Shown one piece after another: positions 5,304-19,343 of a stretch of DNA of 20,149 nucleotides. Below the pieces are notes generated by a model, which saw only the letters and a program-made list of their open reading frames with translations, had not been told where the DNA came from and made no database searches. Source of the DNA: a virus; the IMG/VR virus record IMGVR_UViG_3300029319_000683, positions 1 through 20,149 of that record. The stretch is one strand, 5' to 3'. The position numbers and the translations under genes were made by a program. The stretch's first letter is position 1; the number at the start of each line of letters is the position of its first letter.

Positions 5304-5377
5304 AGAGTTGTTTACGTTATGTTATATTCTCTCTCCTAGAATAGGTGAGAGAGATAATATAACTTAACTACAACTCT
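5304..5377 (+). repeat. Long stem-loop ahead of the first early gene
   Basis: The left arm starts AGAGTTGT (5304-5311) and ends GTTATATT-CTCTCTC (to 5335). The right arm runs GAGAGAG-ATAATATAAC to ACAACTCT (5370-5377). The arms pair over about 25 of 32 positions, and the tip can close as CCTA-GAA-TAGG. There is no U-tract. It sits in the leader of the first early gene, 31 bases before its ATG, so it could be an RNase III site, a 5' stabilising hairpin or an attenuator. Confidence 0.6.
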
Positions 5378-5407: not shown

Positions 5408-5716
5408 ATGTTCACTTCAATTCCAAACCCTCGTACATCAGAAGCTGTTGAGGCTATCAACGTTAACCCTTTTACAAGGGTTGTTAACGTCAGGTTCACC
5501 AATGGCTATGAGTACAAGTACTCAAATGTTAGCAGAGCTAAGATTGTTAATCTTATGATTAACCCTAACATGAGCTTCGGGTTCTGGATTCAAGAGCTCA
5601 GCAAGAATGCTGTTAGAGCTCTTAGTTACCTAAGAGGTAACACCGTTGCTACTGGCAAGCTATGCTATGAGCAAACTGGTGTGTCTGCATTCAGAGGTGA
5701 TACACTACCTTTCTAA
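5408..5716 (+). CDS. KTSC-domain-like small early protein
   Basis: This is the first gene of the early block, 102 residues. Residues about 22-65 (TRVVNVRFTNGYEYKYSNV, then a helix ending MSFGFWIQEL) resemble the KTSC domain, a small beta-beta-alpha fold with a V-x-F-x-N-G-x-x-Y-x-Y-x-x-V core and a G-x-x-h-x-x-x-I turn. That domain is common in short phage and bacterial proteins and is sometimes fused to nucleic-acid enzymes. No catalytic residues are evident. Codon use is G/C-richer at third positions than in the late genes. The coding sequence contains an inverted repeat CGTTAAC/GTTAACG (5461-5489). No strong ribosome binding site precedes the ATG; the long hairpin and promoter candidates lie just upstream. 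Early position suggests host take-over, but the function is unknown. Confidence 0.75.
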   Translation: MFTSIPNPRTSEAVEAINVNPFTRVVNVRFTNGYEYKYSNVSRAKIVNLMINPNMSFGFWIQELSKNAVRALSYLRGNTVATGKLCYEQTGVSAFRGDTLPF

Positions 5717-5729
5717 GGTAGTTGTATCT

Positions 5730-5772
5730 AGCGTCTGGGTTTTCACTTGCGGTTCAACTCCGCAAGGACGCT
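5730..5772 (+). ncRNA. tRNA acceptor/T-arm-like hairpin in leader
   Basis: AGCGTC (5730-5735) pairs with GACGCT (5767-5772). Immediately inside on the 3' side, CTTGCGG (5746-5752) pairs with CCGCAAG (5760-5766) around the 7-base loop TTCAACT. The loop fits the tRNA T-loop pattern TTCRANY, and the two 3' strands abut as in a real acceptor/T-stem stack. A 10-base strand (5736-5745) replaces the D and anticodon arms, and no CCA follows. It could be a tRNA relic, a tRNA mimic or a chance hairpin. A second small hairpin TAACCC-TTTA-GGGTTA (5774-5789) follows it. Confidence 0.4.
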
Positions 5773-5816
5773 CTAACCCTTTAGGGTTAATTGTCCACCG
5801 TTACATCCATCCTGTC

Positions 5817-6518
5817 ATGTTTGTCCACATCACCAAAAAATCAAGCAATGCAAAAACAGGCAGAATGCCTGTTACGACTACTGAGTCGAGCTCATGTCCC
5901 ACTACTTGTCCACACATCAACGGAAATTGCTACGCAAAATCTGGATTTCATTTAGCTCAGCATTGGAAAAAAGTCAGCTCTCGAGAGAGAGGTGGTTCTT
6001 GGTCTGAGCTTTGTGACTACGTTAGTAGTCTCAAGCCTCGCCAAATCTGGCGTCATAACCAAGCTGGCGACCTCGGCTATGTAACCGATCAGCAAGGACG
6101 CGAGCTAATCAGACTTGACTTGCTCAAGTCCCTTGTTGACGCTAACAAGTCTAGCAAAGCTAGAGGTTATACTTACACACACCACAAGTTAGATTATTTA
6201 CATAATCTAGAGGCAGTCAAGTATGCCAACAACAACGGCTTCACAGTTAACGCCAGTTGTGAGACTATGTCTCAAGTTGACGACGCCATCGCTCAAGGTA
6301 TTCCGGCGGTAGTTGTCGTAGACAACAGCAAGGACGTACCAACACATACACCAAACAACAATAAAGTTGTTGTCTGTCCAGCTCAAACATCTGATACCAA
6401 CTGCGTTGACTGCGGTCTTTGTGCTCAAGCCAAACGCAAGTGTGCAGTTGCATTCTTAGCTCATGGCAACAGAGCAAAAAAACTTAATCAAACATTGGAG
6501 GCACTACAAAATGGATAA
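5817..6518 (+). CDS. Cysteine-rich phage protein (DUF7227-like), probable metal or Fe-S binding
   Basis: This 233-residue protein resembles a family found in many phages and plasmids and often left unnamed. An N-terminal block SSSCPTTCPHINGNCYAKSG (C27, C31, C38) is followed by RHNQAGD (79-85), a middle part with YTYTHHK, and a C-terminal block with C187, C196, C199, C202 and C209 (CVDCGLCAQAKRKC). The conserved cysteines suggest zinc or an iron-sulfur cluster, and the overall layout has been compared with TIM-barrel, radical-SAM-like folds, but the reaction is unknown. The frame is open from an ATG at 5646 inside the previous gene. I chose the ATG at 5817 because the family begins shortly before the first Cys block and the upstream 100 bases contain a non-coding hairpin. 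Its stop overlaps the next ATG. Confidence 0.8.
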   Translation: MFVHITKKSSNAKTGRMPVTTTESSSCPTTCPHINGNCYAKSGFHLAQHWKKVSSRERGGSWSELCDYVSSLKPRQIWRHNQAGDLGYVTDQQGRELIRLDLLKSLVDANKSSKARGYTYTHHKLDYLHNLEAVKYANNNGFTVNASCETMSQVDDAIAQGIPAVVVVDNSKDVPTHTPNNNKVVVCPAQTSDTNCVDCGLCAQAKRKCAVAFLAHGNRAKKLNQTLEALQNG

Positions 6519-18805: not shown

Positions 18806-19343
18806 ACCTTTTTCACAAAAAATCTTTTATAAAACTAATCCACAATTACCTAAATTAATACTGCAAGAAATGGTTAAGTCTACTGAAAAGTTAGACTATG
18901 TAAAGAGTGAAACCTTTGGGAATCAACCTACATTAAGAACATCATCACAGTATTGGTTACAATGGGATACTTGGATAGCTGGTATCATGCACAATATATT
19001 TATTAGTGCTAACAATGATTACTTTCATTATGACTTAGACCATTTTGAATCTGGCATACAAGTAACTAACTATGAAGTGGGTGAAGAATATAATTGGCAC
19101 ATGGATATGGGAATTGATGAAACCAGATCACGTAAATTATCAATGAGTTTATTGCTAACTGATGATTTTACTGGTGGTGAATTAGAAATCTATGACCTAT
19201 CTATAAATAAAAATGTTATTGTTCCACTTAAAGCTGGAGAAGTCGCAGTGTTTCCGTCGTGGGTACCACACCGTGTTAAACCGGTCACTGCTGGTAGACG
19301 TATAAGTCTAGTGGCATGGATGAACGGACCAGAATTTAAATGA
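18789..19343 (+). CDS. 2-oxoglutarate/Fe(II) oxygenase, prolyl-4-hydroxylase-like
   Basis: This 184-residue protein has the classic PKHD-type signature: YNWHMDMG with H104 and D106, a strand-rich core LSMSLLLTDDFTGGELEIY (117-135), VFPSWVPHRVKPV with H161, and R171 in RRISLVAWMNG. The enzyme would use iron, oxygen and 2-oxoglutarate to hydroxylate an unknown target. The start is a GTG at 18789 that overlaps the cysteine-rich end of nrdA by 17 bases. The stop lies 1 base before the nrdB ATG, so all three are co-translated. It is AT-richer than nrdA and nrdB. Placement between the two reductase subunits is unusual for cellular operons, and a functional link to nucleotide reduction is only an inference. 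Confidence 0.9.
   Translation: MTVNNKPFSQKIFYKTNPQLPKLILQEMVKSTEKLDYVKSETFGNQPTLRTSSQYWLQWDTWIAGIMHNIFISANNDYFHYDLDHFESGIQVTNYEVGEEYNWHMDMGIDETRSRKLSMSLLLTDDFTGGELEIYDLSINKNVIVPLKAGEVAVFPSWVPHRVKPVTAGRRISLVAWMNGPEFK

Follow-up and report, generated by a model that had tools for sequence, protein, structure and literature searches.

The window analysed here is the whole of a 20,149-nucleotide viral record from IMG/VR (IMGVR_UViG_3300029319_000683), a 20-kb stretch assigned to a T7-like marine cyanophage by the transaldolase, terminase, T7-type RNA polymerase and primase/helicase genes in its list of open reading frames (ORFs). The closest named relative is the Prochlorococcus phage P-GSP1, whose DNA is 89.7% identical over 1.2 kb spanning the element described below and whose RNA polymerase stands at 95% against that of the window phage. 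The comparison set is dominated by metagenome contigs, and counts are taken over related sequences. Between a KTSC-like gene and a gene for a DUF7227 protein, the window carries a small RNA element resembling the acceptor stem and T-arm of a tRNA, here termed mini-tRNA, which is flanked by two hairpins, H1 and H2:

5408 to 5716, plus strand: KTSC-like gene (phrog_7365) upstream, from the ORF list; its stop codon lies within hairpin H1
5699 to 5728, plus strand: hairpin H1, spanning the upstream stop codon (-14.7 kcal/mol, z -4.4) and ending 2 nt 5' of the 13-bp stack
5730 to 5735, plus strand: acceptor 5' strand (A)GCGUC; A5730 is optional and G5731 would be position +1
5736 to 5745, plus strand: 10-nt linker UGGGUUUUCA in place of the D and anticodon arms; its motif is kept in contigs L212, L228 and L250 despite changed stems
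5746 to 5752, plus strand: T-stem 5' strand CUUGCGG, with covarying pairs
5753 to 5759, plus strand: T-loop UUCAACU; UUC[AG]A[CU]U in 31 of 31 relatives
5760 to 5766, plus strand: T-stem 3' strand CCGCAAG, with covarying pairs
5767 to 5772, plus strand: acceptor 3' strand GACGC and the 'discriminator' U5772 (position 73); the pairing is observed, an RNase Z cut at 5772/5773 is predicted
5774 to 5789, plus strand: hairpin H2, UAACCC-UUUA-GGGUUA, starting 2-3 nt past position 73
5817 to 6518, plus strand: DUF7227 protein gene downstream (Pfam PF23872, E 2e-78)

The KTSC-like protein matches its PHROG family with an E value of 3e-31 and Pfam KTSC with 1.8e-4, the latter short of Pfam's cut-off. 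The DUF7227 gene, which is the cysteine-rich gene of the preliminary description, starts 44 nt 3' of the mini-tRNA; its product contains a cysteine cluster, CPTTCPHINGNCYA, and CVDCGLC near the C-terminus, and judged from its sequence is a possible metal-cluster protein. Upstream of the KTSC gene, at approximately 5321-5363, there is also a long hairpin (GTTATATTCTCTCTCC..GGTGAGAGAGATAATATAAC), with similar ones in the corresponding position of P-SSP7, P-SSP3 and P-SSP2.

The preliminary description had reported an acceptor and T-arm look-alike at 5730-5772, with 10 nt replacing the D and anticodon arms and no encoded CCA, and all of this is borne out: the stem and loop coordinates are exact and the two 3' strands abut at 5766/5767. 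Residues A5730-C5735 pair with G5767-U5772, and both stems of the 13-bp stack do pair, but the outermost A5730-U5772 pair is optional, being unpaired in 14 of the 31 relatives, so that the conserved stack of the main type is 5 + 7 = 12 bp. This is also the length of the acceptor/T stack of a tRNA (7 + 5), the break in the 5' strand being placed elsewhere in the mini-tRNA. The GG of the linker may contact the T-loop as the GG of a D-loop does. The element folds with -17.4 kcal/mol (z -3.05 against dinucleotide shuffles). We scanned the window with a descriptor (acceptor and T-stem each of 5 bp or more, T-loop [AT][TG]CRANY, strands abutting), which found one such site in the window and zero in its shuffles; weaker matches at 19094, 17585, 15915 and 6106 were set aside, as they lie within genes or antisense and score far lower.

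Searches for known RNAs gave the element no other identity. The Rfam tRNA family (RF00005) had no match in the window and none around the element even at an E value of 10. ARAGORN called a 93-nt tRNA-Arg(tct) at 5681-5773, but this call was rejected because it takes hairpin H1, at the KTSC stop codon, for an anticodon arm and because it is not conserved: among the fetched relatives it recurs in only one other contig (L019/L232) and is absent in P-GSP1 and the rest. Neither ARAGORN nor Rfam detected tmRNA in the window, C4 antisense RNA (RF01695) was not matched, whether at the gathering threshold or at E 10, mascRNA had no match in the window, and the window scan placed no Rfam family at the element. 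The locus holds a coaxial acceptor/T-arm stack of 12 bp with the T-loop UUCAACU, which fits TTCRANY, and with compensatory changes. The sequence 3' of the stack is CUAACCC and that 3' of H2 is AUUGUCC, neither being the direct U run of an intrinsic terminator. The heptamer TGTCCAC at 5792-5798, 3' of H2, is found in nearly all relatives. A published cyanophage tRNA-like leader was not found in the open-access literature, although an earlier description elsewhere is possible; no tRNA-like element is named in a large comparative survey that describes the cyanophage RNAs manA, wcaG and PhotoRC-II (PMC2864571).

The element is kept beside the same genes in P-GSP1 and in many cyano-podoviruses of IMG/VR, and in P-GSP1 its stems and loop are unchanged next to diverged coding DNA. 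Among 31 distinct versions from relatives, 96.5% of the cells are paired and 8 carry double changes, compared with 2.0 expected from shuffles; the covariation exceeds that of all 500 shuffles and of the slid controls, and pairing is lost when the 3' strand is slid. The pair 5731/5771 is GC in 31 of 31, a double change from C-G to U-A occurs at 5732/5770, U-A becomes A-U at 5734/5768 in L212 and L228, and the T-stem pair 5750/5762 appears as C-G, A-U, G-C, G-U and U-G. A second subtype (6 of the 31) is short of one T-stem pair on both sides. The MAFFT alignment was excluded from counting because its subtype-B gaps are out of register. Since the 31 versions are related sequences, a stricter test tells more, in which sequences were selected by the linker TGGGTNTTNN and the T-loop alone, without a pairing condition: in all 24 distinct sequences both stems are paired, with the five inner acceptor pairs and a 7-bp T-stem (6 bp in L212), and in L212, L228 and L250 the stem sequences are largely replaced while the linker is unchanged. 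Compensatory changes, on which the preliminary description had staked the element beforehand as a refuting test, are thus present in relatives, and because the stems covary the element is maintained rather than decaying.

The flanking hairpins are conserved in the same manner. An H1-type hairpin lies over or beside the upstream stop codon, a few nucleotides 5' of the acceptor, in 28 of 29 distinct relatives, its stem being exchanged among CACUACC/GGUAGUG, CCUUGC/GCAAGG, CUAACC/GGUUAG and GCUUAC/GUAAGC. Hairpin H2 is present at a fixed distance in every relative with this type of cassette, on very different, covarying stems (for example UAACCC-UUUA-GGGUUA, UAGAUACUAAC..GUUAGCUAUCUA and UGACUAACAGUUACACUGUUUAGUCA). 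The three-hairpin stretch 5695-5800 (106 nt) folds with -40.5 kcal/mol (z -5.5 against dinucleotide shuffles).

The same cassette occurs in L094 and L116 5' of a gene unrelated to DUF7227, and the descriptor scan detected mini-tRNAs with unrelated stems on the coding strand ahead of KTSC, DUF7227, capsid and other genes; dinucleotide shuffles of the scanned sequences gave approximately zero matches. The earlier suggestion of a leader for the cysteine-rich gene alone is therefore too narrow. P-SSP7 has three mini-tRNAs (603-647, 975-1044 and 20632-20678); in P-SSP3 four lie at gene junctions and a further, weaker site was picked up twice, and in both phages all are on the coding strand. Among 21 early elements, ahead of KTSC, DUF7227 and several other small genes, 19 lie 11-60 nt ahead of the first candidate start codon and the other two lie farther away, at 175 and 259 nt. 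Antisense matches in the DUF7227 loci were discounted, being mainly one coding stretch around AGACTTG-AGCAAGT-CAAGTCT. The stack measures 11-12 bp in most stem types, with an apparent range of 11-16 bp, and the T-stem/acceptor split is 7/5 here and 6/5 elsewhere, compared with 5/7 in tRNA. The pair G1-C72 is found in 39 and U75 in 51 of 63 stem types, a set that includes a few chance matches or true tRNAs such as the tRNA-Val in L067. A universal D-loop-like GG contact was considered and dropped: GG is present in 54 of the 63 linkers, several of them long, and is thus frequent but not general, and some capsid linkers carry a mini-arm of 3-5 bp in its place. Many capsid T-loops have G at position 55, which makes pseudouridine-55 modification unlikely as the function.

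Two further observations concern these leaders. The long leader ahead of the KTSC-gene mini-tRNA includes a non-coding stretch, TTAAGTAGCTCG...CGAGG.TAAAACGTAACA, common to P-SSP7 (L003, approximately 461-520) and P-SSP3 (L002, approximately 760-820), which looks like another structured RNA. In P-SSP7, TTATCCACA directly 3' of the first mini-tRNA is similar to a DnaA box, a likeness that may be fortuitous.

The leader of the capsid gene was compared in the 67 loci that include 260 nt or more 5' of that gene, and none is empty. A mini-tRNA is present in 47 of them (43 detected, and four variants outside the loop pattern in L171, L182, L203 and L205); in the other 20 the place is taken by a hairpin whose stem covaries and whose loop is CACCUCAGAGUCGGA (with a difference of 2 nt in L150), here called the CACCUC hairpin. 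When the place was searched for a hairpin with a 7-nt loop, without any condition on loop sequence or acceptor, 46 were found; the loop is T-loop-like in 45 of them, and 44 have an acceptor. This check is weak alone because the leaders are related and a swap of 3' flanks between capsid loci still yields an acceptor in 37%. The CACCUC hairpin, with its invariant 15-nt loop, has no match in Rfam, occurs in at least 120 viral DNA stretches (52 stem types among the matches listed), mostly ahead of capsid-like genes, and is possibly a processing element or ribozyme not yet described. As they occupy the same place in the capsid leader, mini-tRNA and CACCUC hairpin appear mutually substitutable. Complete or reduced tRNAs are found at this site as well, and are listed here after examples of the CACCUC hairpin:

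L180, 1297 to 1311; L155, 1293; L198, 1309; S-CBP1 (L090), 20965; S-SRP01 (L092), 26947: CACCUC hairpins 5' of the capsid gene
L382, 6154 to 6224, minus strand: complete tRNA-Gly(UCC) in the capsid leader (ARAGORN; Rfam RF00005, 70.3 bits)
L184, 628 to 695: tRNA of 67-68 nt without a D-arm and with a UCC loop, at the mini-tRNA site (31.2 bits)

The full tRNA at the capsid site is known from one contig, L382, whose capsid gene is 58% identical to that of P-SSP7; its last base directly abuts the usual leader (UUGGCUUUUGGCC...), 121 nt ahead of the capsid gene. These forms suggest a series from tRNA through reduced tRNA to minihelix, the direction of which we infer from the sequences. The anticodon disappears along this series, whereas the portion measured by RNase P and recognised by RNase Z stays, which speaks for selection acting on processing and not on decoding.

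A Glutamine-II riboswitch in P-SSP7 (L088) is followed by a short ORF (MKVTFVYRGVAYTRVIG) and this in turn by the capsid mini-tRNA (20522-20678 in all); the end of the short ORF overlaps the acceptor 5' strand, and translation of the peptide could therefore compete with the tRNA-like fold. A conserved, hairpin-like sequence, CCGTCTAGACGGTGGGATAGACCACA, lies 3' of the capsid mini-tRNA or CACCUC hairpin in P-SSP7 (20724-20742, where it occurs once) and relatives. The capsid-leader motif GACGGTGGGATAGACCACA was considered as a phage promoter and rejected as a repeated one because it is found once in P-SSP7.

Building on the observed structure, conservation and interchangeability of the mini-tRNA, we propose that it is an acceptor/T-arm stack that phage transcripts retain between genes as a mark for processing ('punctuation'), with a probability of about 0.58; so read, the element would act as a tRNA punctuation mark, yet it is no tRNA by the usual definition. 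Among the readings offered in the preliminary description, that of a mimic bound by a tRNA-handling enzyme agrees best with the evidence, recognition by such an enzyme being presumed. Stacks of approximately 12 bp do lie at junctions of co-oriented genes. The host tRNA-maturation enzymes would recognise the stack in the polycistronic phage mRNA, with RNase Z cutting on the 3' side of position 73 (5772/5773) and RNase P possibly on the 5' side of G5731, and the cuts would separate the upstream from the downstream message. Cleavage would place H2 at a distance of 1-2 nt from the 5' end of the downstream message and leave H1 near the 3' end of the upstream one, and the two hairpins would shield these ends from RNases E and J and 3' exonucleases. 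A hairpin at the extreme 5' end of an mRNA is a classic stabiliser, and bacterial RNase Z is stimulated by uracils downstream of position 73. RNase P gauges the stack of T-stem-loop and acceptor like a ruler and also cleaves RNAs other than tRNAs if they offer such a stack (PMC4919913); a polycistronic mRNA and phage RNAs are among its documented substrates (PMC11143913). Both enzymes occur in cyanobacteria, RNase Z as the product of a single gene (PMC10989914). The features that are kept, i.e. the stack of 11-12 bp in most types, the T-loop, G1-C72 and U75, match what these two enzymes read. A tRNA at the capsid site must be excised by RNase P and RNase Z for use, and the same is plausible for its replacements.

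Several findings count against the punctuation reading: the T-stem/acceptor split is unlike that of tRNA, the stack length ranges over 11-16 bp, there are G55 variants and no CCA, and H2 is very near the site at which RNase Z is predicted to cut. With H1 in place just two unpaired nucleotides precede the stack; so short a single-stranded leader should be an obstacle to RNase P, and we therefore regard RNase Z as the likelier enzyme at 5730-5772, where it possibly acts alone. Since a non-tRNA hairpin substitutes in 20 loci, the tRNA enzymes are not the sole way to fill the role at the capsid site. We suggest tentatively, with the odds somewhat against it, that T7-like cyanophages split their polycistronic mRNAs by interchangeable signals, i.e. 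full tRNAs, tRNAs reduced to acceptor/T-arm minihelices but still cut by the host's RNase P and RNase Z, and, in the same position in other lineages, the CACCUCAGAGUCGGA hairpin as a second, undescribed cleavage site or self-cleaving element.

It is unlikely that the array of H1, mini-tRNA and H2 stays uncut and sets the mRNA stabilities of the neighbouring genes by blocking exonucleases or the movement of RNase E or J. Three stable hairpins do stand in succession, an unrelated hairpin can replace the mini-tRNA at the capsid site, and the host possesses both RNases (PMC10989914), but such a barrier has no need for a T-loop, a 12-bp length or an unpaired linker motif that persists through complete stem changes, nor for interchangeability with a real tRNA. 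We consider equally improbable a cis-regulatory leader whose tRNA-like fold would bind a protein or a ligand and so regulate how the following gene is translated. The position 30-60 nt ahead of many start codons would suit it, as would the P-SSP7 capsid element just past a Glutamine-II riboswitch and overlapping the short-ORF end; however, the same cassette precedes unrelated genes, the start codon is not overlapped, no conserved alternative fold with the start region is present, and the stems have no fixed sequence. Still less credit is due to a decoy, an excised and stable small RNA that would occupy a host tRNA-handling enzyme (elongation factor, CCA-adding enzyme or nuclease) during infection: the T-arm/acceptor half is the part such enzymes grip and there are several copies per genome, but the flanking hairpins and the consistent position between genes are in keeping with a role in cis, G55 variants would be poor targets of pseudouridine-55 synthase, and without an anticodon the mini-tRNA is no decoy for anticodon nucleases. 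An attachment site or a decaying tRNA fragment, both raised in the preliminary description, is hardly credible: tRNA 3' ends are common attachment sites and the related P-SSP7, P-SSP3 and S-TIP37 encode integrases, but the copies are not beside the integrase, P-GSP1 has no annotated one, the 21-nt core TGCGGTTCAACTCCGCAAGGA occurs in a single genome, a Chloroflexi MAG without a tRNA call at that place, among 84,980 species genomes, and the stems vary freely and covary among several different copies per genome, so that of the tRNA relic only the origin may stand, given the full and reduced tRNA-Gly at the capsid site of relatives.

The punctuation reading recalls mitochondrial tRNA punctuation, in which tRNAs between mRNAs are excised by RNase P and RNase Z. 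Both have tRNA-shaped signals at junctions in long transcripts, and L382 has a full tRNA at an equivalent site; the signal here, in contrast, belongs to a phage of bacteria, lacks the D and anticodon arms, is presumably non-decoding and hairpin-flanked, and its cutting is predicted. Known non-tRNA substrates of RNase P, i.e. the C4 antisense RNA of P1 and P7, the phage-induced M3 RNA and a polycistronic mRNA (PMC11143913), share a T-stem-loop/acceptor-like stack, but C4 is an antisense regulator of other structure, whereas the mini-tRNA is an intergenic cassette with H1 and H2 before several genes. The tRNA-like structures of plant RNA viruses and mascRNA/menRNA likewise mimic the acceptor/T-arm half of tRNA, and mascRNA is released by RNase P and RNase Z; the mini-tRNA differs in that it is much smaller, has no CCA and lies in DNA-phage mRNA rather than at a genome 3' end. 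Coliphage T7 has RNase III processing sites, and in both T7 and the cyanophages, which are T7-like (Autographiviridae), a polycistronic transcript is presumably divided; the T7 site is a long hairpin, whereas the cyanophage signal is a 12-bp tRNA-like stack with a T-loop, for which other enzymes are expected.

Two RNA families without a match in Rfam, the mini-tRNA cassette and the CACCUC hairpin, would extend the inventory of well-studied phages such as P-SSP7 and S-CBP1. The mini-tRNAs are natural candidates for minimal RNase P/RNase Z substrates and offer a testable answer to what replaces the RNase III sites of T7 in cyanophages. If the proposal is true, the phages of the most abundant photosynthetic cells would organise their mRNAs via borrowed host tRNA-maturation enzymes; bacterial viruses would then have an equivalent of mitochondrial tRNA punctuation, and a single genomic site would display what may be stages in the reduction of a tRNA to a bare processing signal.
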